Shown piece after piece: positions 40,347 to 61,180 of a stretch of 64,000 bases of DNA. This DNA comes from Conus ventricosus (Eukaryota; Mollusca; Gastropoda; Neogastropoda; Conidae): the NCBI GenBank assembly GCA_018398815.1, contig CM031602.1:101930174-101994173 (forward strand), read 5' to 3'. Made by a program: the position numbers and the translations under genes. The notes under the pieces are model-generated. The model searched no databases. It saw only the letters and a list, made by a program, of their open reading frames with translations, and was not told the DNA's origin. Position 1 is the first letter of the stretch; the number at the start of each line of letters is the position of its first letter.

Positions 40347-40470
40347 GCCAGGGCGTAACGCCTGGGTTAGAGACGGTATTTATACCGTTTTGGCTCCGCC
40401 GCATCTCAAACCGGCCTTAGCCGGTCTCGTGACGGGCCGAAGCCAAAAGCGGCATTACGTTCTCTACTAA
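40347..40470. repeat. Complex terminal hairpin, left (T-shaped foldback)
   Basis: Nested palindromes: ACGGTAT-TT-ATACCGT (40,373-40,388); outer arms TTTTGGCT (40,388-40,395) and AGCCAAAA (40,441-40,448); and within them ACCGGC-CTTA-GCCGGT (40,410-40,425). Imperfect outer pairing extends from about 40,367 to 40,466. CGTTCTCTAC at 40,457-40,466 is shared with the right hairpin at 61 kb. Such cruciform ends recall hairpin telomeres of linear DNA genomes; that parallel is inference. Confidence 0.6.
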
Positions 40471-40560
40471 GCATGACTTTATAACCAAAAAGTCTTTTAA
40501 AACTGAGTTATAATTTTTGACATAAATTCCACACTACACTGCATGCGTGAGAGAGATTGG
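40457..40560 (+). repeat. Shared outer end, left copy (inverted relative to 60,970-61,092)
   Basis: CGTTCTCT-AC-AAG-A-GACTT, ATAACCAAAAA, TTTTAAAACT-AGTTAT and TTTTTGACATAAA appear in the same order on the reverse strand at 61,092-60,970, with one extra block of about 40 bases in the right copy. This is homology by eye over roughly 70 conserved bases. Confidence 0.7.
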
Positions 40561-40933
40561 CTTTATGCAGGTTGTTTTTTAAAGGGATGCAGTGAAGCGC
40601 GGCACTCCCCAGAGATTCAATAGAAGCATTCAGAGCAAGCTAGTGGTCTCCACTCATGCACCGTTGGATTTTGTAAAGCCAGTCAGCAGTTATGAATACG
40701 ATCGATTTCTATTGCCTGCAGTTCTGAATAGCGAGATTTCTATAAGTGTTGAAAGGATTTTGCTCAGTCATTCCCGCCTGAGGTAAAAACAGATATAGAC
40801 ATGTTTCTTACATTCTCCTATCATAAGTCAAGATTTAATCATGTGATAGTAAAAAGACGTCACATCCGCCCCCAGCACTGTTGTTGACGTTGGCAACCAG
40901 GCAGAGCTGTCTTTTCATTTACTTGGTGGCGTT
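40561..40933 (+). other. Leader before the unknown gene
   Basis: About 370 bases without repeats or recognised motifs, between the hairpin end and the gene at 40,934. Confidence 0.4.
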
Positions 40934-41839
40934 GTGCTGTGCAGGTGTGTGGTGCGTTTTTCTGTGAGAGAAGTGTTTGCTTATGGCACAAATATAGCTG
41001 CAGTTTTAGAAGACAGTGTGGATTCTGAGTTAGAAAAAGTTCTTGAATCACAAATACCTTTTCAACAACATTATAGATTAAATTATTTGGGTGCGGAAGA
41101 CATGGAATCAGCTACAACTTTCCAACAAGCTCAAATCTCCCGTTACCCACCGCCAACACCAACGGAATTGTGGACAGAGGAAGAAATGCTTATTTTGCAA
41201 GAGATTCAAGACTACTTTAAAAAAAATGACAGAAATAATTGAAAAGATTAAAAGGGAAGGACCGCAGGATTTGCCAAAGAAGCCTAAAAGAAAGCTTGAG
41301 CAATTGTTAAAAGAAAAGAAAGGAACAAAAAAAGGAGAACAGATCTTTCAATGCCACAAGAATTACATGACTATCTTATGGCAAATCAGGCTGACATTCA
41401 ATCAGCTATTTCCAGAGAAGCTTTTGCTGATCAGATATTTTCTGAAACAACAAATGAAGCTGAAATTGTAGAAAGACTACAAAAAGGGATGAGAAATTTG
41501 AGGAGGCAAGATGCACAGTCCTTGCTAATTTACGTTCAGTTTGGTAACTTCTTGATTTTGTGTAAACAATGGCAGGAAAATGAAAGGAAAGAAGGGAGAA
41601 CGAAGGAAACATGGGCTGTTTGGTTGAAAGAAAAAACCGGTATTCCGATGTTCACGCACGAAAAATTACGTGCCGTTGCAAGGTTCTTTATGATACACAG
41701 GGTTTATGCTGTAGGCCTTCCCTTTCGTTTCATTTTTGGCAAGCTAAATGAAATCAAAGCCATGCTGCAAGTGCCAAAATTTGCGCAGTTCTGGAAACAA
41801 GATCCATGCATATCAAGCGAGCTCCAACAGTCCCAGTAA
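40934..41839 (+). pseudogene. Unidentified gene of about 290 codons with two frameshifts at A-runs
   Basis: Three overlapping frames (40,934-41,242; 41,091-41,471; 41,351-41,839) read as one protein if a base is gained or lost at the A-run near 41,219-41,228 and again near 41,325-41,335. Composition is that of a real protein: acidic N terminus (EDSVDSELEKV), PPPTPTELWTEEE, a Lys-rich middle, then a helical region with WAVWLKEKTGIPMFTHEKL and a hydrophobic VYAVGLPFRFIFGKL. I do not recognise the family. It lacks NS1/helicase, DDE or HUH motifs that I can see. If the A-run shifts are sequence errors, it is intact. Confidence 0.5.
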
Positions 41840-41849
41840 ATAGAACCGT

Positions 41850-41960
41850 TCATGCGTGACGGCTGATAGAATCAATATGCACATAGTATAGACCTGGCAA
41901 GTTCAGAGACGTTTTCATTACTAAAAATACGACCGTTCACGCGTGAACGCTAGCCTGCCT
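41850..41960 (+). repeat. Palindromic CCGTTCA motifs after the unknown gene
   Basis: AACCGTTCATGCGTGACGG near 41,844-41,862 and a perfect 16-bp palindrome CGTTCACGCGTGAACG at 41,934-41,949. Similar CCGTTCAT...AACGG hairpins recur in the array at 59,590-59,935 on the other side of the Polinton pair. Confidence 0.65.
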
Positions 41961-42337
41961 GCCAACATTCTTACTCCATTTAATGACTTTTTTTGCTGTT
42001 GTGGTTGCCTGCTTCTTCACCTCTACCCCGCCAACGCTCCGCCAACACCCTGCTACAAACTTTTAGGCTGTCTCAGACGGCCGCTAGGTGTACTTTATAC
42101 AATTGTCTTGTTTTATTCAATCAGGCTTTTGTTAAATGCACCTGGTGGCTGCTTTGAACTTGCGACAAAAAGCCAATGAATCACAAAAACGCAAGCGCCG
42201 TCTTGCACCAAGTGGTGTTACACATAACGAATAATAAAGCTCTGTGTACACCACACACACACTCCCTCCCCTTCCACGCCCACAAAACCAAGCACGCACT
42301 CCGTCCCCGTACCGAGCTTTGAACACTTGACATCTTG
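41961..42337. other. Spacer up to the Polinton terminal repeat
   Basis: Nothing recognised. A short CACACAC run and an AATAAAG word lie near 42,230-42,265. Confidence 0.4.
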
Positions 42338-42805
42338 CCCTAATCACCCCAAGTCACCCCAAGTCCTTAATTAAGTTCTTAATCAAGCCCGCCCCAAAAA
42401 GGTGATCCTAGTAATTCCACTTTTGGCACCTTCCACTTTGAAAACCTTGACGCCCCTTCACCCTAAGTCACCCCAAGTCACCCCAAGACGCCCCAAGTCC
42501 TTTAAATTTAAGTTCTTGATCAAGTTACCCCAAGTCCTTAATTAAGTTTTTAATCAAGTCACCCCAAGTTCTTAATTAATTTTCTAATTAAGTTCTTAAT
42601 TAAGTCACCTAAAGTTCTTAATAAGTTCTTGATCAAGTCATCCCAAGTTCTTACTCAAGTCAACCTAAGATCATAACTAAGTCATCCTCTAAGTACAACT
42701 AAGTTCTTATTCAAGTTATCTTATAAAAAAAAAAATACAATCTATGTTTTTTATCTTAAATAGTAATGTCAATAAGTCACACACGCTTCAAAAAACGCGT
42801 CATCA
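42338..42805 (+). repeat. Left terminal inverted repeat
   Basis: Built from AAGTTCTTAATTAAGTCACCCC-like units, many containing the palindrome CTTAATTAAG. 42,600-42,800 aligns with the reverse complement of 58,680-58,900: AGTTCTTAATAAGTTCTTG, AACTAAGTCATCCTC, AATACAATCTATGTTTTTATCTTAAATAGTA, CGCGTCATC. The outer part (42,338-42,540) is longer than in the right arm and may contain an extra duplication. Confidence 0.8.
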
Positions 42806-43518
42806 TCAGACCTTCTGTCTGAAGAAGCCACCAAGACTCTGGTTCTGCTTTCATTCTTTCAAGACTTGACTACTGTAATTCTCTTCTTGCTGGCTGTCCA
42901 CAAACTCCTTGCAAAATTGGGCAGAAAGTCCCAAAATAATGCTGCTCGCCTTGTCTCGAAATCTCCGAAAACCTCTCATGTTTCTCCCTTGCTTAAATCT
43001 TGCACTGGCTCCTGTTGAAAAACGCATCAAGTACAAACTTTCTTTGCTCTGCTACAAGGCATTGGATGGCCTCGCTCCATCTACCTCTCTAAACTTCTGT
43101 CGACCTATACTCCTTCCAGCCCAGCTTCGCTCTTCTTCTGACACTTTCGCATTCTGCAGATCCCTCGTTTTCGAGCCAGAACACTTGGTGAACGTTCTTT
43201 TTCTTTTCAGGCTCCTTCCTGCGGGAACAATCTCCCTTCTGCACTCCGAAACCCCAAACAGTCTTTCTTCTTTCAAGTCCTCCCCAAAACAAAAACCCCT
43301 TCAAAACATAATTTTCTGCTCCCCTTTGCTGGTGTTTTGGTGTGTGCGTGTGTGTGGTGTTGTGTGTGTGGGTGTGGGTGTGTGTGTTGTGGGTGTGTGT
43401 GTGTGTGTTGGTGTGTGTGTGTTTGGGCTTATTGCTGTAAGCGCTTAGGGCTTTTGTTTAAGATTAAGCGCACTAAATGGGTTTCCCTTTTTATTTTTAT
43501 TATTATTATTATTATGTC
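42806..43518 (+). mobile_element. 5'-truncated LINE (L2/CR1-like 3' end) inserted in the left arm
   Basis: The right arm is uninterrupted here (near 58,675), so the insert can be delimited. It encodes, in shifting frames, the C terminus of a LINE reverse transcriptase: LDYCNSLLAGCP, PVEKRIKYKLSLLCYKALDG (43,013-43,075), QLRSSSDT. A GT microsatellite (43,337-43,425), a GCGCAC motif and an ATT-repeat tail (43,494-43,514) follow, as in L2/CR1-type 3' ends. Confidence 0.8.
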
Positions 43519-43680
43519 TTGCTCAGCGTCCTCTGCGTGAGATTGGTCAGCATGATCTTAATGAAGTTCTTACATCCTAAAACAACCGCATTGATTAAAA
43601 AATCTGGTCTATGGAAATGTCTTTTATAGACTCCATGTCTTTATTTTTTGACTTCAACAAATACTAATCCGCCATGATCT
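43519..43680 (-). pseudogene. Cys-rich small gene, left-arm copy, disrupted
   Basis: Matches the reverse complement of 58,504-58,680. The LINE insertion separates its 3' end. The CXXCXCXXC segment is degraded in this arm. Confidence 0.5.
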
Positions 43681-43689
43681 ATTTTATCA

Positions 43690-44165
43690 AAAAATTTTAA
43701 AATATTATTGCATTATAAATGGATCAAAAAGATGTTTTGTTATTGGCGTTCCTGGGGCGCTGTTGTGTTCGTCTTTTTTTCATTTAATGGTTGAGATTGT
43801 TTGGACTTTGGGGGTTTTTCCACGTTGTTTATATATTTTATAACCGTAATAACCGCCCCCAACAGCAGCAAGGGCGCTAAAAAAAGGCAACATTTTAAGT
43901 TTAATAATTCCATGAAGACTTTGGCGCTGTAGGTCTTGAATCATATGGAGTTTTTTTTAGCTGGCATTGAATCGACTGTTGGCGTTGGCGGCGTTATGTT
44001 TCATGATGAGTTATATTTGTGAAATTTTAACTGTAATTTTTTTGTTGTTCCACTCAGCTAATTTTTTTTTTTCCCGCTGCAATTCGTCCAGGATGAGGTG
44101 TTTTAGTGACCACTTCACCTGATTCAATGTTTTTTGATTCTGCTGATTTTCTGCTCGTTCATTTT
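43690..44165 (-). pseudogene. PGRV/membrane protein gene, left-arm copy
   Basis: Reverse-complement counterpart of 57,970-58,452, with landmarks CATGAAGACTTTGGCGC and ATAACCGTAATAACCGCCCCCAAC. It has several indels and a damaged start. Confidence 0.55.
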
Positions 44166-44640
44166 GAAGGGAAAAAATCTATATGATTAAAAGTAATTAA
44201 TCCCCCTGATTAACGGTGAAACAATGTTCCAAATCTGTAGTATAAATCACACCCTAGAGACTCTAATGACTTTGTTAAAACTGGATCTTGCGTTAAAAAC
44301 ATAAAGTAAGATCTTGTTCAGAATCAATGGGGGCAAATCTACTGACTAGTTTTTGTGTACAAACTAAGAACCGTTTGCTCTACACTTTTTACCATTCTTT
44401 ATCCAAGTTGCGCTTCAATACCTGTTATGATACTTAAAATGTCTTGTGGAGACATCTGTTGAAATCTGTTCTATGCTGAATTCAGTTCCGAGGAACTGTT
44501 TTGTTTCCCCCCCATGCCGCCAAAGAATACAGTCTTTCCTTTTTTGGCATAAACTTGGTCATCAACTTGTTCATTTGTAATCACAAGTTCGCAAGGAATG
44601 TTTAGCAGAAACGTCGCTGTTCATGTTTATTACTAAATAT
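44166..44640 (-). pseudogene. 175-aa membrane protein gene, left-arm copy
   Basis: Reverse-complement counterpart of 57,501-58,028 with at least five indels, for example in the stretch corresponding to YTKLVSRFAPID. Confidence 0.6.
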
Positions 44641-44662
44641 AATTATTTTATTTTTAAAAAAG

Positions 44663-44890
44663 GGGCGCTGAAAAAACTGTTGCCAACCTTGTATACCATT
44701 CGCTGTTATTGGAGGTCTAAGTAAGGATACACAATGCTTGGTAAAAGCTTGTTAAGAATTAAACCAGCAGATCTTGGCAAACTAGACTTTGAGGATTCAG
44801 CAAAGCTGATTGCTATATTGCAGCTTCATTTGCTACGAAAATTTTTAGTTAAGCAAGGAATAATTCCAGACAGTAAAAAATGTAAATAAA
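44663..44890 (+). pseudogene. Small membrane protein gene, left-arm copy
   Basis: Counterpart of 57,235-57,463. The start codon region reads GGCGCTGAAAAAAC instead of ATGAGCACTGAAAAAAC. Downstream homology continues to a TAAATAAAAAAT end. Confidence 0.55.
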
Positions 44891-44907
44891 AAATACATTT
44901 ATAAAAA

Positions 44908-45309
44908 ATGGCTTCACTCGTAATGATGATAGGTGGGGCAGTAGTGAATGCGCTTGCTTTAGCGAAGTAATTACGCGTTTAGTAAACTACGGGATATGGC
45001 GAGAGAAAAAACATAACAAAGCATGGAGAAACTAGCAGCTGCACAAGACCCAAATGAAAAGCAGAGAATTGACAGTTGGATTTTATTAATGACAAACTAA
45101 AAAAACAGGGGCATGCAGCTTACACATTTAAAGACGTTGATCAAGCAATAAAAGATATTATCTTGTAACAGGCAAACCAATCGAGACATTGCCCCCACCA
45201 AAATTCAGTGACTTTTATCAACCCTCAGAAAACAAAAGATGCAAGAAATCGTGTTTATCGTCTTTGGCATGACCGTCGTGTATTTTTGTGCGCATAAATT
45301 GGGTGAATA
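44908..45309 (+). pseudogene. 135-aa protein gene, left-arm copy
   Basis: Starts ATGGCTTCACTCGTAATGATG like the right-arm gene and ends just before the integrase ATG at 45,313. Several indels shift the frame. Confidence 0.6.
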
Positions 45310-45312
45310 AAA

Positions 45313-46192
45313 ATGAACAAAATCTATTATTTTCCCAAAAAGGGTATTGGAAGGAATCACAGCAATAAAAAAGCTAAGCCAAGCACGGGGGTCAGTGAAC
45401 AAACAGCAAAGGGAAAGGCTATCTAAACAAGCGATTTGCAAATTTATTTACCTGCCCTAGACGAAAACAGAGACCACTTTGTTAATAAAAATACCGAACG
45501 ACACCCATCAATGGACCTTCTATATTTTCCCCCCATGACAAAGATTAGACGAAAAAGATTTAAGTACGCACTCACAGTCATTTACATAGCTTCAAGATAC
45601 AAAATGCAGAACCATTAACACAAAAGAGTGCTTCTGCTGTTGCTGTTGCCATACAACGATAACCAAAGAGGGCCTTTAACTTATCCTCGCATGATTCAAG
45701 TCGATGATGGGAAAAAAAATTTAAAGGGCCCAAATGAATCAATTATTGTTTAAAACATAGAGTTACCATTAAAAGAGGCATTCCGGGAGTTCACAGATCA
45801 CAGGCTTTAGTTGAAAACTTTAACAAACAGTTAGCTGAAAGACTTTTTCCTACCATATCACAGAGAGCTTATTGACAATTCTCGCAACACAGAATGGGTT
45901 AGAAGACGCCCTCAGTTCTAAAGTGCGATAATAATGAAGAATTTAAAGGGGTAAAAAACCCGTCCAAGCAATCAAAAGAAAAACAAAAAAGTTGCTGAAG
46001 ACTCCAGTACAACCGGCAAACTATACCATTTGGTTTGAAAGTAAGTACCTTATTTACCGGGGAACAGAAGGGGACACTCGCATCAGGGGAACAGATCCAG
46101 TTTGGAGTGTTGATCCATAGAAATAAAAAGAATTGTAAAAATGAATCCGCCCGTGTATTATTACGAAAACTGACACAACAAAAACAACCTAG
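45313..46192 (+). pseudogene. Integrase, left-arm copy, frameshifted
   Basis: Contains the N-terminal KGYWK region, the DLLYFP block with the first catalytic Asp near 45,513, the QVDDGK block near 45,700 and the ALVENFNKQLAERLF block with the Glu near 45,814. Frames break at A/G runs (for example GGGAAAAAAAATTT). Homology continues to TTACGAAAACTGACACAACA near 46,182 and then ends abruptly. Confidence 0.75.
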
Positions 46193-47295: not shown

Positions 47296-48295
47296 NNNNN
47301 NNNNNNNNNNNNNNNNNNNNNNNNNNNNNNNNNNNNNNNNNNNNNNNNNNNNNNNNNNNNNNNNNNNNNNNNNNNNNNNNNNNNNNNNNNNNNNNNNNNN
47401 NNNNNNNNNNNNNNNNNNNNNNNNNNNNNNNNNNNNNNNNNNNNNNNNNNNNNNNNNNNNNNNNNNNNNNNNNNNNNNNNNNNNNNNNNNNNNNNNNNNN
47501 NNNNNNNNNNNNNNNNNNNNNNNNNNNNNNNNNNNNNNNNNNNNNNNNNNNNNNNNNNNNNNNNNNNNNNNNNNNNNNNNNNNNNNNNNNNNNNNNNNNN
47601 NNNNNNNNNNNNNNNNNNNNNNNNNNNNNNNNNNNNNNNNNNNNNNNNNNNNNNNNNNNNNNNNNNNNNNNNNNNNNNNNNNNNNNNNNNNNNNNNNNNN
47701 NNNNNNNNNNNNNNNNNNNNNNNNNNNNNNNNNNNNNNNNNNNNNNNNNNNNNNNNNNNNNNNNNNNNNNNNNNNNNNNNNNNNNNNNNNNNNNNNNNNN
47801 NNNNNNNNNNNNNNNNNNNNNNNNNNNNNNNNNNNNNNNNNNNNNNNNNNNNNNNNNNNNNNNNNNNNNNNNNNNNNNNNNNNNNNNNNNNNNNNNNNNN
47901 NNNNNNNNNNNNNNNNNNNNNNNNNNNNNNNNNNNNNNNNNNNNNNNNNNNNNNNNNNNNNNNNNNNNNNNNNNNNNNNNNNNNNNNNNNNNNNNNNNNN
48001 NNNNNNNNNNNNNNNNNNNNNNNNNNNNNNNNNNNNNNNNNNNNNNNNNNNNNNNNNNNNNNNNNNNNNNNNNNNNNNNNNNNNNNNNNNNNNNNNNNNN
48101 NNNNNNNNNNNNNNNNNNNNNNNNNNNNNNNNNNNNNNNNNNNNNNNNNNNNNNNNNNNNNNNNNNNNNNNNNNNNNNNNNNNNNNNNNNNNNNNNNNNN
48201 NNNNNNNNNNNNNNNNNNNNNNNNNNNNNNNNNNNNNNNNNNNNNNNNNNNNNNNNNNNNNNNNNNNNNNNNNNNNNNNNNNNNNNNNNNNNNNN
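47296..48295. other. Assembly gap, exactly 1000 N
   Basis: A block of 1000 undetermined bases, which looks like a fixed-length scaffolding gap. ORFs computed across it are meaningless. The real spacing and even the join are unknown. Confidence 0.98.
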
Positions 48296-48856
48296 GCCTA
48301 ACTAAAGCGATGACGAATAAACGACTCTGTTCGTACTACGTTTGGTGTTTGCTAGGTTCGCAGCACAAACGAATCGAGCATAACAGATCTTCTACTGGTT
48401 TTGATGCACAAAAACAATACTTAGCAAATTTAGAGGACGCCATTAATTTACAGTTGATTTACCTTCAAGTATAAAAAGGTACCAAAATGTTTTACAATAC
48501 GCAAGATCGAAAGTAGACTTTGCTGTTGGCACTGGTTTATACATGCTGCCTTCTGACCTCAGACTCCAGATAGGAACAATAATAAACTACAATAATGAAA
48601 TCCTCGTGGCAGGCAATGAACAAAAAGTTGGGAAAAACGAAATAAATTTGAGCCAGTAATATTGCAAGCAGTAAAAAACAAGATGACCCCCCAAGAATAA
48701 GTCATCCAATCCCCGGGGCCCAAAGCCCAAAGACTGTTGAAGACGTGGACTCTGTTCGCGAAGTCAAAAAATAATGACCATGAATATGAAAAGACAGCGC
48801 TTGTTCTTGGATTAACTGGTCTAGGATTACTCGGTCTTTATCTTACTAAATATTAA
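48296..48856 (+). pseudogene. Unknown element protein (48.3-kb type), 3' part
   Basis: Begins at the gap edge, so the 5' end is missing. Shared with copy B: GFDAQKQYLANLEDAIN (48,400-48,450), LYMLPSDLRLQIG (48,538-48,577) and YNNEIL (48,592-48,610). The last 20 codons (KTALVLGLTGLGLLGLYLTKY, 48,791-48,853) form a membrane helix. Three or more frameshifts. Function unknown; it converges on the next gene and overlaps its end by about 30 bases. Confidence 0.5.
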
Positions 48857-49742
48857 CCCAACTATTAAGAGAACTAATGCCCATAAGTGCTCGGCCATAA
48901 AGCCAACTACTTTGCTTGCGGTAGACAAAAGCCAGCTAACGATACTCCCTAATATACCCGGTAAAGCGTCTATGGCTTTACTGGCTAATTTTTTTAATAA
49001 ACCCGCAAGATGATCAAGCTGTTTTTTACCATGATTTATCAGGTGGAGGGGATGGCGACGGAGGCACTGACCCGGAACCACCGCCGCCTGTAATCGCCAA
49101 CACCAATGTACTTATTGCAAATCCTAAGGCAGTTATAACGCTTGCTAATGTGACACCCTGCTCTCTAAACAGTATTCGTATTCGTTCTGCTAGCGTTGTG
49201 TCTTCATATAAAATTCTTTGGATAGTTTCTCTTATTCTGCTCACTTGAGTTCGCAATTGTTTTTGGTTAGTAGACAACACTTCTAGTCTTGCTGATCTCT
49301 CTTGTTCAAGATCTTTTAGTCTTTGGGTTATTCTTTCTTTAATATCAGGCCCTAAGTTGGCGTCATCAGCCTCAAGGAGTTTTTCTTTTTCTCTTTTTAT
49401 ATGCTCATCTAGTTCACCTAGTTTTGCAAAATTGTTTGTTAATTCGCCTTTGATGCTTCTCAAAGCATGATAAAGGGCCGCTATTTCTCGCATGGGTAGC
49501 GGTGGGTCGTGTATAGTTTTTAATGCTGTTTCTTCTGAAAAACTGGTTTCTGCTTCTATTACATTTTTTAAATTTCCCCCTGCTGATTGTTTTAAATTCT
49601 TTAAGTTCATGTTCTGCATTTGGTTATCTGTTGGAAGTTCTTGCAGTGTGTTTTGAAGTTTAGCAACTCCCTCCGCTCTTAATTTCGGTCTAACAATGCC
49701 AAGGCGATTTGTACGCTCGCAGGGATTTAAATTTCTAATCAA
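48827..49742 (-). CDS. Coiled-coil protein with two C-terminal hydrophobic segments
   Basis: The start at 49,742 gives 238 codons to a frame break near 49,060; the neighbouring frame then carries a further 70 codons to 48,827. Order: N-terminal RNLNP segment; helical coiled coil around residues 75-185 (ELDEHIKREKEKLLEADD, ERITQRLKDLEQERSARL); ILFREQGVTLASVITALGFA hydrophobic segment at 193-215; GGGGSGS and a Pro/Ser linker; then, after the shift, amphipathic and hydrophobic helices (ALPGILGSIVSWLLSTASK, WALVLLIVGLIF). Conserved in copy B. Probably membrane- or virion-associated; no enzymatic motif. Confidence 0.65.
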
Positions 49743-49751
49743 AACCCACAG

Positions 49752-50029
49752 CTAAAAACTTTGAGGGTCTTTTTTAGTTTTTAAGTGAACAAGTTGTCCT
49801 TGATCGTTTTTCACAAAACAAATGGTATCTTTTACTTCAAAATCATTAGGGTCTATAAATTCGGGAGGTTCTTGACCTAAACTTTGGGTACAATGAAATT
49901 TGACCTTACTTTCTTTTAATTCACGCCGCAATGAGAGCGCTGAGTGATGCTGTGTCAAAGGGATCATTTCATCATGTCGTCTCCAGGATCAAAAACATCA
50001 TAATCTTCTTCCCCTTCAATGCCTGCCAT
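49752..50029 (-). CDS. Small acidic protein gene divergent from capsid
   Basis: The ATG at 50,027-50,029 starts MAGIEGEEDYDVFDPGDD, then meets a stop; 71 more codons follow in another frame from 49,967 (VKFHCTQSL, ICFVKNDQGQLVHLK). One gene of about 90 codons if a single base is restored. It lies 10 bases upstream of the preceding gene and 42 bases from the divergent capsid start, suggesting a shared promoter region. Function unknown. Confidence 0.45.
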
Positions 50030-50071
50030 TTTTTTTTAAAAAATTTAAACTTTTTATTTTGCTTCAAAAAA
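50030..50071. promoter_or_regulatory. Divergent intergenic region
   Basis: Only 42 AT-rich bases separate the divergent starts at 50,029 (-) and 50,072 (+). It should hold promoters for both, but I see no distinct motif. Confidence 0.3.
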
Positions 50072-51342: not shown

Positions 51343-51365
51343 ATTATTTTTATTTTAAAAAAAGC

Positions 51366-51467: not shown

Positions 51468-51717
51468 ATGCAACAAAAACTAGAGCAGGACCTTTCAAAA
51501 ACGCAAAACCAAACGAAGGTTTCTGCTGTCTTTAATGCTGTTACCCATGTTAATTTTGGAGCATCGGCTATTAAGTGCTCTATCAGCAGGAACGAGTGTT
51601 GGTCTCTTAGCAACAGGTTTTGGTGCACCGGCAGCTTTACCTCTAGGCGGTTTGTCTTTAGCTCTTGGCCTGTGTTCATTAGCTGTAGGTGCTGCTAGCA
51701 AAAAAATAAAAAAATAA
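51468..51717 (+). CDS. Conserved glycine-rich hydrophobic protein, copy C
   Basis: Begins MQQKLEQDLSKTQNQTKVSA; after a one-base shift near 51,540-51,570 it continues LSAGTSVGLLATGFGAPAAL and ends in a basic KKIKK tail at 51,717. A charged N-terminal helix plus one or two membrane-type segments, the same plan as 26,812-27,084 in copy B. About 80 residues. Role unknown. Confidence 0.55.
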
Positions 51718-51733
51718 ATCACAAAGCACAGCT

Positions 51734-52061
51734 ATGGTTCAACTAATAAAAGCTAAACTTAGTTCCTTCAATGGATAATAAATAAAGCGCTAGCTGACTC
51801 AAACATCACGGATGAAGGAAATTTAATCGTTTACAGGCCGATTTTGATGACTACAAAAGACAAAAGTTTGATCTTCAAAGAAAGGCGAGGACAAGTTTTT
51901 CTCAACAGCCAGACCCGAGCAGATAAAAAAGGAATGTTTAAAAAAGTAAACGAGACATTAAACTCTGTTCTAAACAGCTCACAGTAACAACATCAAAGGG
52001 CGTTTATACTTTAGTTTATGAGTCCAAGCATAAAAAGACCGTTGATATTGATTCTGATTAA
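51734..52061 (+). pseudogene. Small coiled-coil protein (ITDEEF type), copy C
   Basis: The ATG at 51,734 and TAA at 52,059-52,061 frame a gene whose middle reads NITDE ... FDDYKRQKFDLQRKARTSF across frames, with SKGVYTLVYESKHKKTVDID at the end. Homologous to 26,533-26,800. Located just upstream of polymerase. Confidence 0.5.
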
Positions 52062-52115
52062 GCCGTTGTATTTTTTTAATTTAAATAAATATGTTGGCTT
52101 AGAAAGAAAGACAAC

Positions 52116-55100
52116 ATGGCTAAGATATATGAAGGCCCAGATGAATTGTTTGAAGGAATGCTCGAGAAAGAGCGTTTGTCAAGAGCACTGAATGATATTG
52201 ATTTAGAAGTTATTAATCCAGAAAACGTGCGGGCAAGCGTTGTACATGCAATTTCTCAAGTTCCAAGTAAACTAACAATAGACCCGCCAGTTAAAGTAAT
52301 GTTAGCTGTTTTAATCGACTATATAACAATAAATGAAGAAAATCTAGAAGTCTGGGTCTCAACTAAACAACAGACTATTCTTTCTCATAACGACATAACA
52401 CCCGGTTGGGCAGACGAACTGCTTACACAGTTTGACGCTGCCGCTGAAGAAGCTAAAATGAGAGGCTCTGGTTGGTCAGAGGGCGAAGTCTTAGAGATTA
52501 GATTAAAACAGGCTAAGTATGCACCGATTGTAGGCAAGGCTTACATTCCGCTACCCGAGAGTTGGTTTTTAAAGAGAGCAGTTTTAAACATAAAAAATTC
52601 AGACAACAAATGTTTCATGTGGTGTGTTCTCGCAAGGCTGCATCATGTCCGCGAACACGCAGAGAGAGTGACTAACTATCGGCAATACAGCAAAGATCTT
52701 AACTTCAATGGAATATCCTTTCCTGTTGGTGTAGACAAATTGATCAGTTTGAAGAACAAAACAAACCAATAACTGTCAATATCTACACATGGGATGAGGA
52801 AACAAATCTACAGCCGATTAAAGTGTCCAAGAACAGTCCAACAATTGGCGAGCCAGACAAAATCATGTTGACTTACTACTAATGTTTTCACCAGCGGGGC
52901 TGCCACATTACACATTGATACGAACAATGAGTAAACTAATGCAGCATACTTCAAAAGATGGGCACAAACAAGAATTCTGCAGAAAATGTTTAACAAGAAT
53001 GCCATCTGTTCAAGCCGCAAGCGAACATAAGAAACATTGTATCGGCCCAGTTGACTGTAATACAGAACTAATTACGCCCCCACCTGGACCTAAGTTAGTT
53101 TTAAGAACTGGAAAAAAAACTGCAAACAAGTCCATACATTGTTTACGCAGACTTTGAATCACTCATTGTTCCTTATGAAGGGCCCAGCGCCACAAAAACT
53201 TCGAAAAACAGTCTTAATGAGTAATCATCAGATTTGTTCATTTGCCTTCATTATTGTTAGGTCGGATGGCGCTCATTCAACGCCAGAATTATATAGAGGG
53301 CCTAATGCTGCAGAATACTTCTTAGAGCGCATGCAGCAAGTGCGTAATGATTGTTCTAATAATCTGAATTTATCTGAAATCATAATGACGCCCGAAGACC
53401 AACAACAGTATGCCTCAGCCACTCACTGTTGGATTTGTGGTTTAGGCCTCTCATCAGACGCAGCGAATCCAACAGTAAGAGACCATGATCACATTAGTGG
53501 AAAGTTCAGAGGAGCTGCGCACAACAAATGCAATCTTCAACTAAAGTTTGAACCAAAGACATGGAAGCTGCCCATCTTCTTTCATAACTTGCGAGGTTAC
53601 GACTCTCATCTTATATTGCAAGCAGTAACCAACGCCTTCAGGGTAGCATGCATTGCACAGTCATCAGAAAAGTACATGTGCTTTAATCTAAATAACATGT
53701 CTTTTTATGACTCTATGCAAACATGATGGGATCATTAGAGTCACTAGCTATGTCCTTAAAGTCCTGCCCAATAACGGAAGAATATTTTGACCCAACTCTT
53801 GTTAGAAAGGGCGTTTACCCTTATGAGTACATGAACAGTTGGGAAAGGTTTGACGAAGATACACTTCCACCTAAAGGCGCGTTCTTTTCTAGTCTTAGAG
53901 GAAAGGACATCAGTGATTCAGATTACCAACATGCTCAAGATGCGTGGCAGAAGTTAGATTGTAAAACGATGGGAGACTATCATGACTCATACTTGATGGC
54001 TGATACATGTTTGTTGGCGGATATTTTTGAAAATTATAGGAAGACCTGCATGAAACATTATAGCCTGGATCCCGCGCATTACATTTCTGCGCCCGGGATG
54101 AGTTGGGATGCTTTCTTAAAGTTTACTGGAGTACAAATTGATTTATTGTCTGACCTACCAATGATTCAGATGATTGAAAACGGATTGCGTGGAGGAATTA
54201 GTATGGCGTCGCATCATTACTGTAAAGCAAACAACAAATACTTGGACGACTATGATCCGAGTAAAAGGTCTAACTATCTCATGTATTTAGATGCAAACAA
54301 TCTGTATGGTTGGGCAATGGCGCAATCACTTCGTTACGCAACTTTAAAATGCACACAAGCGTCGATCCGAATAATATTCAAAAGGCATTAAAGTGGTTGA
54401 ACAGTTTAACGCCTGATCAGCAGCGTGGATACATTCTAGAAGTTGACTTAGAATATCCTCATGAACTCCATGACCTGCATAATGACTACCCATTAGCAGC
54501 AGAAAGTCTAAAGACGAATCCAAGAGAGCCGCCTAAACTTGTGCCTAATCTTCGTGGCAAAAAAAATTATGTCTGTCATTACAGACTTCTACAATTTTAT
54601 TTAAGACACGGTTTGAAGTTGACAGCAGTTCATCGCATAATTGCTTTCGATCAAGAACAGTTCATGAAACCATACATCATGAAGAACACTGATCTCAGAA
54701 CCAAATCCACATATGCTTCAGAAAAAGACTTTTTCAAGTTGATGAACAACAGCTGTTTCGGAAAGACTATGGAGAAATCCGCACAAGCGCAAAGATGTCA
54801 GATTAGTCACCAAAGAGAACGAAGCAATTAAGCTAACTTCAAAACCTAATTATCAGGACTTTAGAAGATTTCATGATCAGCTTTTTGGCATAATGATGAA
54901 AAAAAAGAAAGTCAAATTGGACAAACCTGTATTTATTGGGTTTACTGTTTTAGAATTATCAAAGCTTTTGATGTTAGAATTTCTTTATGACTACTTTAAA
55001 CCCTTGTATCCAGAGTCCAGAGTACTTTACACAGATACAGATAGTTTTGTTATAGATGTCCCTACTGAAGACATCTATAAAGACATGGAATCGAAGTGGC

Positions 55101-55552
55101 TAAAGGACATGCGGGATGGTATGATACATCTGATTACCCTAAAGATTCGCCTTTACATTCATCCGTTAACAAGAAGGTTTTAGGAAAGATGAAGGATGAA
55201 TTATCTGGAGGGGTGATCAAGGAGTTTATTGGTTTAAGGCCAAAAATGTACAGTACTTCGAGCCAGGAGAAAAACCATTAAGAAAGCAAAAGGAATATCT
55301 CGCAGTGTTGTGCAGTCAAACATATCGCATGACAACTATAAAGAAGCATTGTTTGGCAATAAGACTTTTCATCATGACAACGTAAAACTGCGATCTAATC
55401 TACATGAGATCAACACAACAGTTGTAACAAAGAAGTCGTTAGATAGAACAAACACAAAACGCGTGTTTGTTAATCCAGAGTTTTCATATGCAATCGGGCA
55501 CTGGAGGACCGCATTAAACAGGGGGTTTTATATTTTTCATCAACTTTTATTA
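52116..55552 (+). pseudogene. polB: Protein-primed type B DNA polymerase, about 1,140 codons, frameshifted
   Basis: Replicates the element. The start at 52,116 is the first ATG in a 218-codon frame. In order: N-terminal domain (FMWCVLARLHHVREHAERV near 52,615-52,670); a C2HC cluster (CRKCL ... HKKHC, 52,978-53,040); exonuclease D and E in YADFES (Asp at 53,150, Glu at 53,156); an HNH-like cluster (CWICG ... RDHDH ... RGAAHN, 53,428-53,528); exo II HNLRGYDSHL (53,583-53,612); motif A LDANNLYGW (54,287-54,313); motif B NNSCFGKTMEK (54,745-54,777); motif C YTDTDSF with Asp codons at 55,034 and 55,040. All catalytic motifs are intact, but frame changes occur near 52,740, 53,125, 53,720, 54,335, 54,810, 54,890 and 55,110-55,300. 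Length is normal for the family. Confidence 0.9.
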
Positions 55553-55820
55553 TAAGATCAATCATAGCTTCATCCAATTCATTTAAATCTTTTCTCATGT
55601 TTGCTTGACGCGTTCGAATTTTTTTTATTATTTCAAGATATTCTTTTTCCCAATTTGGGGGTTTGAGTTGTAGGTGATCTGGATGATTTAGCATGCATTG
55701 ATTAATCCTCGAAAATGTTTCCTTAATAGCATTACACGCCTGAAATGATTCCCGTATCATTTTCAAGGTCTCTTCCTTTACCATTCTTGTTTCGTTCTGC
55801 GCTTCCTTCTGGCCTTCCAT
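55470..55820 (-). CDS. 116-aa helical protein between polymerase and integrase
   Basis: An uninterrupted frame starting at 55,820. Strongly charged and helical (EKEYLEIIKKIRTRQANMRK, DLNELDEAMIDLIIKVDEK). Its end overlaps the polymerase 3' end in the opposite direction, so the two genes converge. The true end may be a little earlier. Absent from the left arm, which stops just before it, and from copy B. Function unknown. Confidence 0.5.
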   Translation of the reverse strand: MEGQKEAQNETRMVKEETLKMIRESFQACNAIKETFSRINQCMLNHPDHLQLKPPNWEKEYLEIIKKIRTRQANMRKDLNELDEAMIDLIIKVDEKYKTPCLMRSSSARLHMKTLD

Positions 55821-55850
55821 TTTAAACCAAAATATGTTTACGTAAATTAA

Positions 55851-56800
55851 TTAAAGCGGAACTGTGTCTGGCGGAATTATCTGCAGTTCTTCTTTCACAA
55901 AAGATCTTTGAGGAGCTGGTTGTTTTGTTGTGTCAGTTTCTCGTAAATAATACACGGGGGGATTCATTTTTACAATTCTTTTTATTTCATATGGATCAAC
56001 ACTCCAAACTGGATCTGTTGCCCTGATGCGAGTGTCCCCTTCTGCTTCCCCGGTAAATAAAGGTACCTTACTTTTAAACCAAACGGCAATAGTTTGCCGG
56101 ATGAAGACTCTCCTTCAACAACATTTATTGTTTTTTTTTGATTGTTTGTACTGGTTTTAGCCCTTTAAATTCTTCATTATTCATTGCGCGCAAAACTGAG
56201 GGCAGTCTTCTAACCCATTCTGTGTTGCGAGAATTGTCAATCAGTTCTCTGTGATACTGGTAGGGAAAAGTCTTTCAGCTAACTGTTTGTTAAAGTTTTC
56301 AACTAAAGCCTGTGATCTGTGAACCCCCGGAATGCCTCTTCTAATGGTAACTCTGTGTTTTAACAATAATTGATTCACTTGGCCTTTAAATTCTTTTCCA
56401 TCATCGACTTGAATCATACGAGGATAAGTTAACGGACCTCGTTGGTATATCAGCTGTATGGCGACAGCAACAGCAGAAGCACTTTTTGTGTTTTGGTTCC
56501 GCATCTTTGTATCTTGAAGCTATGTCAATGACTGTGAGTGCGTACTTAAATCTTTTTCGTCTAATCGTATCAGAGGGTAAATATAGAAGGTCCATTTGAT
56601 GGGTGTTCGTTCGGTATTGTATTCACAAATTGTGGTCTCTGTATTCGTTTGGGCGCTGGTAAATAAATTTGCCAAATCACTTGTTTAGATAACCATTCTT
56701 TTGCTGTTTGTTCACTGACCCCTGCCGCTTGGCTTAGCTTTTGTATTTGCTGTGATACCCTTCCAATATCCTTTGGGCGAAAAATAGATTTTGTTCATTT
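55851..56800 (-). pseudogene. Retroviral-type integrase, copy C, about 316 codons, frameshifted
   Basis: Inserts the element. The ATG at 56,798-56,800 lies 3 bases after the stop of the 135-aa gene. Order: N-terminal MNKIYFSPKGYWKGI and WLSKQVIWQIYLPAPKRIQR; rve core with Asp in DLLYLP (near 56,590), second Asp in VDDGKEF (near 56,400) and Glu in ALVENFNKQLAERL (near 56,285); C-terminal RIRATDPVWSVDPYEI (near 56,030-55,985); stop at 55,851-55,853. The triad is present. Frame changes occur near 56,625, 56,505, 56,240 and 56,100. Two other copies are at 45,313-46,192 and 25,940-26,470. Confidence 0.85.
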
Positions 56801-56803
56801 TTT

Positions 56804-57212
56804 ATTCAGCCAATATTATGTGCAACAAATACACGACGGTCATACCAAAGACAATAAACGCGATTTCTTGCATCTTTTGTTTTTCTGATGGATGATAAAA
56901 TCGCTGAATTTTGGTGGGGGCAATTGTCTCAATCGGTTTGCCTGTTACAAGTAATTTTGGGTTTTATTGCTTGATCACAATCTTTAAATGTGTAAGCTGC
57001 ATGCCCCTGTTTTTTCAGTGTGTTATTAATAAAATCTAACTGCTCAATTCTATGCTTTTCATAGGCGTCTTGTGCTGCAGCTAGTTGCTCCATAGCTTTG
57101 TTATGTCTTTTTCTCTCGCCGTCGTCCGTAGTTTACTAAACGCGTAATTACTTCCGCTAAAAGCAAGCGCATTCACCACAGCGCCCCCTATCATCATTAC
57201 GAGTGAAGCCAT
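56804..57212 (-). pseudogene. 135-aa protein, operon-like with integrase
   Basis: The start at 57,212 (MASLVMMIGGAVVNALAF) is a hydrophobic N-terminal segment, followed by a helical charged part (MEQLAAAQDAYEKHRIEQL), a KQGHAAYTFKDCDQAI segment and a C-terminal membrane helix (IAFIVFGMTVVYLLHI), stop at 56,804. Frame changes near 57,125 and 56,960. Conserved in the left arm and copy B, always just before integrase. Confidence 0.6.
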
Positions 57213-57234
57213 TTTTTATAAATGTATTTTTTAT

Positions 57235-57463
57235 TTACATATTTATACTGTCTGGAATTATTCCTTGCTTGACTAGAAAATCTTCGTGGCAAACGAAGCT
57301 GCAATGATAGCAATTACCTTTGCTGAATCCTCAAAGTTAGTTTGCCAAGATCTGCTGGTTTAATTCTTAACAAGCTTTTACCAAGCATTGAGTATCCTAC
57401 ACTTAGACCTCCAATAACAGCAGAATGGTATACAAGGTTAGCAACAGTTTTTTCAGTGCTCAT
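57235..57463 (-). pseudogene. Small membrane protein, about 75 codons
   Basis: The start at 57,463 gives MSTEKTVANLVYHSAVIGGL and a second hydrophobic part (VIAIIAASFATKIF) after a one-base shift near 57,330. The stop at 57,235 is 22 bases before the next gene. Divergent from the 175-aa gene, 37 bases away. Confidence 0.5.
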
Positions 57464-57500
57464 TTTTAGAAAATAAAATAATTATAATTTAAATAAAAAC
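57464..57500. promoter_or_regulatory. Divergent intergenic region near the right end
   Basis: 37 very AT-rich bases between starts at 57,463 (-) and 57,501 (+). By position a bidirectional promoter; AATAATTATAATTTAAAT is the only notable sequence. Confidence 0.3.
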
Positions 57501-58028
57501 ATGAACAGCGATGATCTACTACAGCTACAAGGCAGCCTAAACCTTCCTGAACTTATGAATGACCAAGTTGATGATCAAGCTATTATGCCCAAAAAGGAGA
57601 GGCTGTATTCTTTGGCAGCATGTGGGAAAACAAAACAGTTCCTCGGAACTGAATTCAGCATAGAACAGATTCAACAGATGTCTCCACAAGACATTATAAA
57701 GTATCATTACAGGTATGAAGCGCAGCTGGGGTCTAGAATGGTGAAAAGTGTGGGGCAAACGGTTCTTAGTTTGTACACTAAACTAGTCAGTAGATTTGCT
57801 CCCATTGATTCTGAACAAGATCTTACGTATGATTTAACGCAAGATCCAGTTTTAACAAAGTCATTAGAGTCTCTAGGATGTGATCTATACTACAGATTTG
57901 GAACATTGTTATCGCCATTAATCATGGGATTAATAACTTTTAATCATATAGATTTTGTTTCCCTTCAAAATGAACGAGCTGGAAAATCATCAGAACCAAG
58001 AAACATTGAATCAGGTGGGAGAAAGTAA
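57501..58028 (+). CDS. 175-aa protein with C-terminal hydrophobic segment
   Basis: An uninterrupted frame with an acidic N terminus (NSDDLLQLQG ... NDQVDDQ), a central helical region (EFSIEQIQQMSPQDIIKYHY, TKLVSRFAPID) and a hydrophobic YYRFGTLLSPLIMGLITFNH near residues 131-150. The annotated stop comes after a probable shift, since the natural end seems to be just after ITFNHIDFV where the next gene begins. Two homologues in this window. Role unknown, perhaps virion- or membrane-associated. Confidence 0.6.
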   Translation: MNSDDLLQLQGSLNLPELMNDQVDDQAIMPKKERLYSLAACGKTKQFLGTEFSIEQIQQMSPQDIIKYHYRYEAQLGSRMVKSVGQTVLSLYTKLVSRFAPIDSEQDLTYDLTQDPVLTKSLESLGCDLYYRFGTLLSPLIMGLITFNHIDFVSLQNERAGKSSEPRNIESGGRK

Positions 58029-58452
58029 CCAAGCCAGAAATCAGCAGAATCAGAAAACACTGAATCAGGGGGGGCCCAGTGAAAAGCACCCTGGGCGTGT
58101 TAAAGCAGGAAAAAAATTAGCAGAGTGGAACAGACAAAAAAATTAATGTTACAGAATATAACTCATCATGAAAACATAACACCGCCAGCGCCAGAACAAG
58201 TTGATTCAATGCCCGCTATAAAAACTCCATGTGATACAAGGGCCCCAAAGTCTTCATGGAATATTGAACTTAAAACTGTTGCCATTTTTGGCGCCATTGC
58301 TGCTGTTGGGGGCAGTTATTACGGTTATAAAAATATATAACCAATGGCAACAAAAACAAAAGCAATCAAAAAAATCTGAACCACTAAATACAGAAAAAGA
58401 CAACTGCACGCCAAAACCGCCAATAACAAAGCATCATTTTGATCATTTATAA
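57970..58452 (+). CDS. Small protein with PGRV motif and a membrane helix
   Basis: The ATG at 57,970 reads a Gln/Asn-rich segment with repeated QNQ(E/K)TLNQ, then KHPGRVKAGKKLAEW, and stops in the A-run at 58,135-58,142. In another frame it continues through WNIELKTVAIFGAIAAVGGS (membrane helix near 58,258-58,318), with a further shift near 58,335, and a Lys-rich tail to 58,452. One protein of about 160 residues if the A-run is misread. Confidence 0.55.
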
Positions 58453-58503
58453 TGCAATAATATTTTAAGAACTTAATTTTAAATTTTTTAATAAAAATAG
58501 ATC

Positions 58504-58735
58504 ATGGCGTATTATAAAATGATGAAGTCAATAAATAAAGACATGGAGTCTAAAAGACATTTCCATAGACCAGAATTGTAATCAATGTGGTTGCTTAGGA
58601 TGTAAGAACTTCATTAAGATCTATGCTGACCCATCTCGCGCTAAGGACGTTAAGCAAGACTCCTCAACGATGACGCGTTTTTTTGAGGCGTGTGTGTACT
58701 ATATTAGACATCTACTATTTAAGATAAAAACATAG
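58504..58735 (+). pseudogene. Cys-rich small protein with CXXCXCXXC
   Basis: The ATG at 58,504; a stop in frame near 58,580. In the next frame NCNQCGCLGCKNFIKIYAD (near 58,578-58,634) gives a compact metal-binding-like cluster, followed by MTRFFEACVYYIRHLLF, stop at 58,733-58,735. The gene runs into the TIR. The pattern recurs in the left arm, where a LINE splits it. Confidence 0.5.
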
Positions 58736-58955
58736 ATTGTATTTTTTGATAATTATAAGATAACTTAAATAAGAACTTGGTTGTACTTTGAGGATGACTT
58801 AGTTATTGATCTTGAGGTAACTTAATCAAGAACTTAAACAAGAACTTATTAAGAACTTGAAGTATTAATTAAAAACTTAATTAAAAACTTAGTTAAGAAC
58901 TTGGGGTGACTTGAAGTGACTTGAGGTGACTTAAGTTAAGAACTTAAAAGTGACT
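58600..58955 (-). repeat. Right terminal inverted repeat
   Basis: Inverted partner of 42,338-42,805 and 43,519-43,600. Outer 200 bases consist of AAGAACTTAATTAAAAACTTAG and GTGACTTGAGGTGACTTAAG-like units. Confidence 0.8.
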
Positions 58956-58961
58956 TAAGTG

Positions 58962-59532
58962 TGTGCTGCGTGGGGTGGGGGTGGGAGGAGGAGGTGTGCA
59001 TGCGGGGGTGGGGGTGGGAGGAGGAGGGTGTGCATGCGTGGGGTGGGGGTGGGAGGAGGAGGTGTGCATGCGTTGGGGTGGGGGTGGGAGGAGGAGGTGT
59101 GCATGCATGGGGTGGGGGGTGGGAGGAGGAGGTGTGCATGCGTGGGGTGGGGGGGGGGGGGAGGAGGTGTGCATGCGTGGGGTGGGGTGGGAGGAGGAGG
59201 TGTGCATGCGTGGGGTGGGGGTGGGAGGAGGAGGTGTGCATGCGTGGGTGGGGGTGGGGGGAGGAGGTGTGCATGCGTGGGGTGGGGGTGGGAGGAGGAG
59301 GTGTGCATGCGTGGGGTGGGGGTGGGAGGAGGAGGTGTGCATGCGTGGGATGGGGGTGGGGGAGGAGGAGGTGTGCATGCGTGGGGTGGGGGTGGGAGGA
59401 GGAGGTGTGCATGCGTGGGGTGGGGGTGGGAGGAGGAGGTGTGCTTGCGTGGGGGGGGGTGGGAGGAGGAGGTGTGCATGCGTGGGGTGGGGGTGGGAGG
59501 AGGAGACGTCCATGCGTGGGGTGGGGGTGGGG
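58962..59532. repeat. G-rich minisatellite of 34-36 bp, about 16 copies
   Basis: Unit TGGGGTGGGGGTGGGAGGAGG-AGG-TGTGCATGCG. Abuts the right TIR. The runs of G on one strand could form G-quadruplexes. All six-frame ORFs of about 200 codons here are artefacts. Confidence 0.95.
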
Positions 59533-59589
59533 CAAAATCTGTCCCAGTTACGAGCACCACTACATCCTGTTAGACTCATGCTGCTAAAA

Positions 59590-59935
59590 TAGGACGTTCA
59601 CACATAAACGGCTATTTATAGTAGCAGTCAGCAAGGCTAATTTTACTGCAGTCCTCTTGCTGCTAAATATTTGCCGTTCATGTATAAACGGCTATTTATA
59701 GCAAGGCGGATTTCCCCACAGTCCTCTTGCTGCTAAAAATAGCCGTTCATTTTATAAACGGCTATTTATAGCAAGGCGGATTTCCCCACAGTCCTCTTGC
59801 TGCTAAAAAATAGCCGTTCATGTATAAACGGCTATTTATAGCAAGGCGGATTTCCCCACAGTCCTCTTGCTGCTAAAAATAGCCGTTCATGTATAAACGG
59901 CTATTTATAGCAAGGCTGACTTCGCCACAGACCGC
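59590..59935. repeat. Tandem hairpin repeats, unit about 69 bp, about five copies
   Basis: Each unit has AATAGCCGTT-CATGTATA-AACGGCTATT, a hairpin with 10-bp perfect arms, followed by TATAGCAAGGCGG...CCTCTTGCTGCTA, a second inverted pair (AGCAAG/CTTGCT). First and last units are partial. Related CCGTTCA palindromes occur at 41,844-41,949. Confidence 0.85.
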
Positions 59936-60265
59936 CTCCCGCAACAAAGAGTTTCATTATACTTTCCTTCTCACACAAAAAAAGTTTTTACCACACCCCT
60001 CCTCTTTTCTCATCCGGGCTTGGGATCAAGCATTTATATGGAGATAGTGCTGGCTACACACTACTCTCTCCATACTGGTAGATGTACTAAGGTCTGCCTA
60101 GCCCTATCTAGTTTTGCCAGAACATTCGAAAATCGTTAACCAGTTGCATAAGTTTAATGATAGTTTGGCGTTTGCTACAGTTCATTTATACTGATTCCTA
60201 GCTTGTGAAATTTAGGATAGTTATAAAAACACACAGAAGTTAAATGAGTTTCCTAGCATACGAAT
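59936..60265. other. Spacer after the hairpin repeats
   Basis: No gene or repeat recognised. It is pyrimidine-rich at 59,960-60,015. Confidence 0.4.
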
Positions 60266-60685
60266 TTATCCATGTTCACCTTCGCCTTGAAAAATGAACG
60301 CCCTGTTTGTAGCGTTTTTGTTTTTTAAACATGACTTGAGCTGTCTCAAGCCGCGGCCAACAATCAACGCGTGATGGATTGTTTTGCTTCGGCCAACTTT
60401 CAACAATGCAGCGCCATTTTTTAGATAAGGAACCATCTCATCGATAGCCAAACACGTATTAAAACTGGCTACATCTTGTTTCATTTCCTTGAACCAACAA
60501 ACCTTTAAGATAGTCGTTCATTTCCAAAGCAGTTAGTTCACTTTTTTCGTTTTCTAGAAAAACAATCTCTCTGGTTTCACAACATGCTTCGCCTAATTCT
60601 TTCAACAAATACTCTAACATGCAGTTAAAGTAAAACTTATGGTCTCGAATAGCACAAACCTGTTCTTCAGTAACGTTTTAGCCAT
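60266..60685 (-). pseudogene. Unidentified small gene, about 140 codons, two frameshifts
   Basis: The ATG at 60,685 starts MAKTLLKN; the better frame then reads VTEEQVCAIRDHKFYFN, EYLLKELGEACCETREIVFL and ALEMNDYLKGLLVQGNE, and after a shift near 60,475 MKQDVASFNTCLAIDEMV, NGAALLKVGRSKTIHHALI to the stop at 60,266. Looks like a compact helical protein. I recognise no family. It occupies the same place relative to the shared outer end as the unknown gene at 40,934-41,839, but the two proteins do not resemble each other. Confidence 0.5.
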
Positions 60686-60965
60686 TTTAAAATAACACAA
60701 TTAAAACACAGTGGTCACACCAGAGCGCAGTCAAAACACAAACCTTCGAGCAAACAATGGCAAACCGGTCGTGTCACGTGACAGCCTCGATACGGTGTGT
60801 CGACGTGGCATAGGCCTAATCGAGAATATTCCAAACGCAGTTTGTAAGCGGGCCGTGCGCTGTGTGAACGAAGGTCGCTTGTCTGCGCTAGCCGTGCCAT
60901 AGCATAAATTAAGTGATCAGGTTTCAGACTCGTGTCTGTGTGGGCAAGTTTTGTAGGTAGAAATT
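60686..60965 (-). promoter_or_regulatory. Leader of the unidentified gene, with a CACGTG palindrome
   Basis: GTCACGTGAC at 60,773-60,782 is a perfect 10-bp palindrome with an E-box-like core. The region is GC-richer than its surroundings and would hold the promoter if the gene is expressed. Confidence 0.35.
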
Positions 60966-60969
60966 AGTC

Positions 60970-61092
60970 AGAATAAGTGTGCGGATTTTATGTCAAAAAT
61001 ATAACTTAGTTTTAAAAACGGATAACCCTACACAGTATGTCTGTTTGTAGATAATCGTTATTTTTTGGTTATTGAAGTCTTACTTGTCAGAG
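60970..61092 (-). repeat. Shared outer end, right copy
   Basis: The reverse complement aligns with 40,457-40,560 as described there, with an extra block of about 40 bases (61,020-61,060). Confidence 0.7.
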
Positions 61093-61180
61093 AACGTAGA
61101 AATACCAATCCTGGGTCGCTTTCGCCCGAAACTGAGTGAGGGCGGAAGTGGCCCAGGATTGGTATTTCTACGTTCTCTAC
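61086..61180. repeat. Terminal hairpin, right: 27-bp perfect arms
   Basis: Left arm 61,089-61,115 begins AGAGAACGTAGAAATACC; right arm 61,152-61,178 is its exact reverse complement. The 36-base interior has a second imperfect stem (CTTTCGCCC / GGGCGGAAG). The outer sequence ACGTTCTCTAC is shared with the left hairpin at 40,457-40,466. Confidence 0.9.

Follow-up and report, generated by a model that had tools for sequence, protein, structure and literature searches.

The question raised by this locus was whether the sequence from about 40 to 61 kb of a 64,000-nucleotide window of the Conus ventricosus genome is one element or more than one (the window, C8:101930174-101994173, is the whole stretch analysed, and coordinates refer to it unless a locus is named). 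Two Polinton arms lie there in inverted orientation (84.7% identity over about 2.8 kb). A sequence-only reading had described, outside these arms, two further units of opposite orientation, each with a foldback hairpin, a shared end, a small gene and palindromic motifs, and had taken 40347-61180 as a possible single unit of 20.8 kb, with two copies of an independent foldback element as its alternative. Both hairpins proved to be genuine termini, belonging to a many-copy family of Polinton/Maverick-type elements. The best explanation of the whole, a hairpin-ended Polinton family represented in the window by two inverted copies and with tips that are proposed to be copied by folding back, was considered likely.

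Each feature of the two opposite units was tested in the window, and the units were real. Foldback hairpins stood at both outer limits, strong on the right (61089-61178, folded with short flanks as 61080-61190; z -11; 0/200 shuffles) and weaker and decayed on the left (40369-40465, folded as 40346-40475; z -2.6; 3/200 shuffles), which moved the outer limits from 40347 and 61180 to 40369 and 61178. The shared conserved end was confirmed at 40495-40535 against 61017-60976, with a local score of 59 over about 43 alignment columns that was unreached in 2000 Markov shuffles (0/2000; maximum 35). Palindromes of the CCGTTCA type (CGTTCA...AACGG, counted with up to 2 mismatches) were likewise confirmed, with 25 matches in the window against 11.5 expected (0/100 shuffles), and were clustered at 41843-41950 and at 59582-59912, the latter as a 70-bp tandem.

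The genome searched was that of the window itself (3.5 Gb). Of 3804 candidates for the left unit, 40 were scored and gave at least 71 matches; of 8485 for the right unit, 40 were scored and gave at least 95. Twenty left-unit loci of 10 kb each were fetched (fetched loci carry L-numbers), and in 19 of them the unit ran on into the Polinton arm, the exception being L025. The arm junction was identical in 16 loci (window 42.26-42.34 to 42.344 kb), and L019, L027 and L028 had another spacer; palindromes were present in 18/20. Both right-unit loci fetched began with a hairpin, followed by the arm. Because the units were joined to the arm in 19/20 and 2/2 loci, they are ends of a Polinton-type element and not separate foldback elements. 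The search for hairpin ends joined to Polintons elsewhere in the genome was thus positive, and the supposed Polinton terminal inverted repeats at about 42.34 and 58.96 kb proved internal to the element.

A hairpin at the gene end was found in 17 of the 20 left-unit loci (16 strong, 1 weak; first 1.9 kb examined). Far ends were sought for nine copies, and a far hairpin was found in seven; stretches that fell short of the ends were L029, largely N, L030, with body sequence alone, and L031 and L032, without a match. The far ends (L033, L034, L035, L036, L038, L039 and L040) carried the terminal repeat of the window units alone, without gene or arm, and a stretch inside the far hairpin was common to L033 and all five of L035, L036, L038, L039 and L040. 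Perfect 5-bp duplications (AAAGT, CTTAC, ACAGG, TGCAG and CAAGG) lay outside the hairpins in five of the seven two-ended copies; cross-pairing the flanks of the first six such copies gave 0/30 matches. Terminal inverted repeats of the five copies with perfect duplications were 94.1-100% identical over 109-454 columns, and those of L024/L038 80.9% over 115 columns. Tip-to-tip length was 15,489 to 16,346 bp in six copies and 17,492 bp for L013. In L019, a hairpin end lay inside the PolB-like gene of another copy, and homology broke at AGAGAAC. Joined loci and duplications together supported the earlier suggestion that the hairpins bound a Polinton-containing element with target duplications outside them.

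The rve integrase (PF00665) was matched above the cut-off at about 2e-10 in L010, L012 and L024, with PDB integrases at 3e-5, and the A32 packaging ATPase (PF04665), also above the cut-off, at 5e-8 in L033 and 3.6e-17 in L039. The polymerase region contained an EndoVII motif (PF02945 just below the cut-off; PHROG 423 at 1.2e-6), and its frames carried by eye DANNLYG, KLMNNSCFGK and YTDTDS, which are presumably PolB motifs. No HUH endonuclease or SF3 helicase was seen among the open reading frames (ORFs) given to Pfam in a scan that was not exhaustive. In a two-ended copy, one hairpin terminal repeat would be followed by the accessory gene, the palindromes, the integrase arm, the PolB-like gene and the A32 ATPase, up to the hairpin terminal repeat of the other end. 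Because of the duplications and the integrase gene, the rve integrase is proposed to insert the element at its AGAGAAC...GTTCTCT tips with a 5-bp stagger, by established integrase chemistry.

Several results weighed against this anatomy. No polymerase model or structure was matched in Pfam, PHROGs or PDB, and the ORFs scanned gave no Pfam match to major or minor capsid proteins or a maturation protease. The gene-end hairpin was absent from L025 and L027 and masked by N in L018, and no far end was found for L020 and L022 among the nine copies sought. Flanks of L013/L043 were CGCGC/CGCAC, a 4/5 match and no perfect duplication, and those of L024/L038 were AAAGG and CAAGC, with no duplication. 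The fetched loci were the best matches, not a random sample. In L025, the accessory gene (1002-1960; 92% identical) stood beside a polymerase-like region (3478-6682) of the other orientation, 71% like that of the window and of a different polymerase lineage. With these points counted, the hairpin-ended Polinton anatomy was held to be very probable.

In the window, the two hairpins differed. Hairpins were divided here into class A (96-112 nt) and class B (88-93 nt), terms coined in this analysis. Lengths at the two ends were 97/96, 111/112, 112/112, 93/90, 92/92 and 92/92 in six copies and 96/96 in L013, so that the length class was the same at both ends in 7/7 two-ended copies; the window hairpins were of 97 and 90 nt and of different class. 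Their outer flanks, GGGTT and ACTGG, did not match (0/5 bases agree). Among loci in which a single match covered the main arm, the left arm was 85.4-89.3% identical to nine class A and 83.7-85.0% to three class B loci, and the right arm 91.1-91.9% to three class B and 87.5-91.0% to ten class A loci. The arms thus appear to lean to different classes by margins that agree in direction but are thin, a weak point of the argument for two copies; the locus nearest the left arm was L018 (91.1%), whose hairpin is masked by N. The left copy stopped at about 46.19 kb, and the next 1.1 kb matched none of the first 20 loci. From hairpin class and flank mismatch, together with the arm leanings, the window hairpins are most likely those of two distinct insertions, inverted relative to each other. 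One would be a copy of class A, truncated at about 46.2 kb, and the other a copy of class B that occupies 48.3 to 61.178 kb, with an N gap between, laid out as follows:

40369..40465, plus strand: decayed terminal hairpin of 97 nt and class A, left copy (folding, shared-end comparison, homologous hairpins in other copies)
40466..40535, plus strand: subterminal sequence common to both window ends, with the conserved block 40495-40535 (local alignment; also inside the far hairpin of other copies)
40934..41839, plus strand: accessory gene in the left copy, with an interrupted frame and no recognised domain (protein family searches; named relatives molluscan)
41843..41950, plus strand: two CGTTCA/AACGG palindromes, 3' of the left gene (palindrome count)
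42344..46189, plus strand: Polinton arm of the left copy, with integrase remnants towards 46.2 kb (arm comparison, Pfam)
42805..43513, plus strand: 709-bp insertion in the left arm, with a reverse-transcriptase-like ORF (by eye) and a GT run (locus comparison)
47296..48295, no strand: run of 1000 N separating the two copies (sequence)
48296..55900, plus strand: body of the right copy, with PolB-like remnants at about 52.1-55.3 kb (locus comparison; polymerase motifs by eye)
49029-49742, minus strand: coiled-coil-like ORF within the right-copy body
55901..58960, minus strand: arm of the right copy (arm and locus comparison, Pfam)
about 55.85-56.8 kb, minus strand: integrase remnants in the right arm (Pfam)
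57501-58028, plus strand: ORF within the right arm
58961..59531, plus strand: 34-bp minisatellite of 16.8 copies, right copy (repeat scan)
59582..59912, plus strand: five CGTTCA/AACGG palindromes, four in a 70-bp tandem (palindrome count, repeat scan)
60111..60677, minus strand: degraded gene in the right copy, probably related to the left gene (weak colinear matches)
60976..61017, minus strand: shared subterminal block of the right end (local alignment)
61089..61178, minus strand: well-preserved terminal hairpin of 90 nt and class B, right copy (folding, class comparison)

The sides flanking the 42805-43513 insertion were nearly adjacent in 19/20 other loci (e.g., positions 3320/3328 of L012), and the insertion was absent from other copies covering that site. 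The 34-bp minisatellite (58961-59531) and the 70-bp palindrome tandem (59649-59930) were unseen in the two other right-unit copies fetched.

The inverted symmetry and the hairpins at both outer limits would also suit one composite element spanning 40347-61180. The seven two-ended copies, however, were 15.5-17.5 kb long with the gene/arm block at one end alone, and the unmatched outer flanks, the difference in hairpin class and the slight nearness of the left arm to class A and of the right arm to class B copies further oppose a 20.8-kb unit, which was judged highly improbable. Mixed classes at one place would be expected of a mosaic, in which genomes of class A and class B recombined while replicating, two gene ends became joined and the duplication was later lost by decay; the left hairpin is decayed, hence its flank may have changed also. 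Against such a mosaic, none of the five flanking bases agreed, the two hairpins had decayed to different degrees and 0/7 two-ended copies were mixed in class, and it was considered quite improbable. Almost no probability, and no evidence in favour, was left to the idea that an independent foldback element flanks a Polinton by chance in two copies, since in 19/20 loci the unit continued into the arm, with one common junction in 16; with the 2/2 right-unit loci, this alternative was refuted for the family. Two inverted insertions of a hairpin-ended Polinton thus remained the preferred reading of the window.

The two arms of the hairpins changed together. The sample consisted of 25 hairpins (17 left, 6 right and 2 window; 23 distinct). 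Stem positions paired in 93.1% of 611 cells, and 16/27 pairs were changed on both sides, in 53 cells; cell counts are inflated by shared descent. All five covariation measures were unreached in shuffles (0/500), and sliding the partner by 1-3 columns left at most 12 double-change cells. Without L016, L022 and the left window hairpin, whose stems aligned poorly, 559/591 cells were Watson-Crick and 16/27 pairs had at least two types. In class B (10 hairpins), arm identity was 0.96 with the own partner against 0.73 with the arms of other copies; the contrast was smaller over all 25 hairpins (0.95 against 0.88).

During extrachromosomal replication, the tips would fold back and one arm would template the other, which would keep the arms complementary despite fast sequence change between copies. 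Such templating would best account for the way both arms change jointly, and fold-back copying of the ends was given an about even chance. Arm covariation could instead stem from selection, which detracts from the proposal and is its main rival: the hairpin would be a selected structure, such as a site for the integrase or a replication protein, and compensatory changes would arise by ordinary selection. Such a structure would be in keeping with the conserved orientation of the tip, forward relative to the class reference in 22/22 comparisons, with the near invariance of the outermost AGAGAAC/GTTCTCT and of the subterminal block, and with the one-sided changes and mismatches present in some stems. 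However, class B arms differed by up to 44% between copies and yet were 96% like their own partner on average, the two ends of one copy (L026/L039) differed at the same pair with each hairpin paired there, and fast joint change fits templating better; selection as the whole cause was regarded as possible, on the doubtful side. Terminal resolution of the parvovirus type would be expected to produce flip/flop, and the absence of flip/flop in those 22 comparisons tells against it; the options left are snap-back synthesis resembling repair, or strong selection on structure. That self-primed (hairpin) fold-back copying of the ends replaces or supplements protein priming in these Polintons was considered a tentative idea and rather unlikely.

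The small gene described for each unit held on the left, where it belongs to a real protein family, and was less clear on the right. A one-sequence search with the left gene returned 2 relatives, a three-sequence profile 39 matches at E up to 1, including both of these, and a broader profile 51 matches at E up to 0.01, overlapping the 39. Relatives named to species were from molluscs (Plakobranchus ocellatus, Elysia crispata and three Mytilus species); three further matches bear transcriptome names alone, and most are nameless. No Pfam domain was recognised in the left accessory family, and Pfam DUF3102 was weakly matched by 12/20 members (best 0.0029). When 2023 window ORF pieces were searched with the profile, the window's own row left out, the three best pieces after those of the left gene were from the right-unit gene, on the minus strand and colinear, each at E 0.18-0.81; the hhalign values were E 0.0014, at a probability of 18%, and E 0.1, at a probability of 0.6%. 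Two other right-unit copies had weak colinear matches (E 0.023 and 3.1; 0.091 and 2.6), and one more match on the opposite strand (E 3.4). By these matches, the right gene is probably a degraded relative of the left one.

The accessory gene was at one end in the sampled loci, which had been chosen by that gene. Its combination in L025 with another polymerase lineage suggests that it was exchanged between Polinton lineages; three more listed loci shared the query sub-range of L025 (590-1540), and a fourth nearly so. The predicted fold of the protein had a mean predicted local distance difference test score of 86.7, with no significant match in PDB and nothing significant among viral models, where a DUF3102 protein ranked 41 (E 3.3). 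No relatives of the protein were found in viral contigs or prokaryote genomes, and a pattern search for the palindromes in viral contigs found nothing. Binding of the accessory protein to DNA at the CGTTCA/AACGG palindromes would be a guess.

In two gene models of Elysia crispata (P0079 and P0082), accessory-gene sequence was fused to unrelated N-terminal sequence. These N-termini had no match above the cut-off in Pfam, NCBIfam or PDB, and that of P0079 none in PHROGs, and a parvovirus link considered through them was dropped. Similar N-termini with diverged cores, as if exons had been shuffled or recombined, were seen in the family members P0005, P0006, P0032, P0040, P0042, P0046 and P0048.

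Elsewhere in the window, an older second Polinton relic occupied 19594-26264 and 31481-31775, with 65-73% DNA identity to the main one; no strong hairpin was detected near it in a scan that also missed the decayed left hairpin.

No description of hairpin-ended Polintons was recognised in the literature searched, subscription papers and Repbase entries being outside its scope, and the family is provisionally regarded as new. If true, self-primed copying of the ends would make these elements Polinton-type transposons with tips like those of parvoviruses, and might link Polintons with bidnaviruses and with DNA viruses that end in hairpins. A high-copy family with jointly changing hairpin arms makes end copying testable from sequence alone and from DNA, and the limits of an element may be set wrongly if its terminal hairpins pass for neighbouring repeats.

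The terminal palindromes of parvoviruses are imperfect hairpins, about 100 nt long, whose arms are paired and whose tip is asymmetric, and occur as flip/flop; the hairpins described here resemble them in size, imperfection, paired arms and tip. Unlike parvoviruses, the elements here are integrated, of about 16 kb and without flip/flop, and had no HUH/NS1 gene among the ORFs scanned. With Bidnaviridae, they share a putative PolB of Polinton type, linear DNA and inverted terminal repeats; according to PMC4061559, bidnavirus inverted terminal repeats form no hairpins, whereas the elements here have hairpin ends, an rve integrase and an A32 ATPase. Hairpins at both ends and an A32-type ATPase recall poxviruses and giant viruses (PMC12747079), in contrast to which the elements here are integrated with target duplication. 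Polinton/Maverick elements, such as the vertebrate Mavericks (PMC8097293), are alike in the rve integrase, the A32 ATPase and the PolB-like gene (motifs by eye), in terminal inverted repeats starting with AG and in a target duplication; the terminal foldback hairpins with covarying arms and the accessory gene and palindromes by one end are differences. The duplication was of 5 bp here and is canonically of 6 bp in Polinton/Maverick elements, a discrepancy that speaks against the assignment; retroviral-type integration otherwise fits, and the 5-bp duplication was taken as a Polinton variant.

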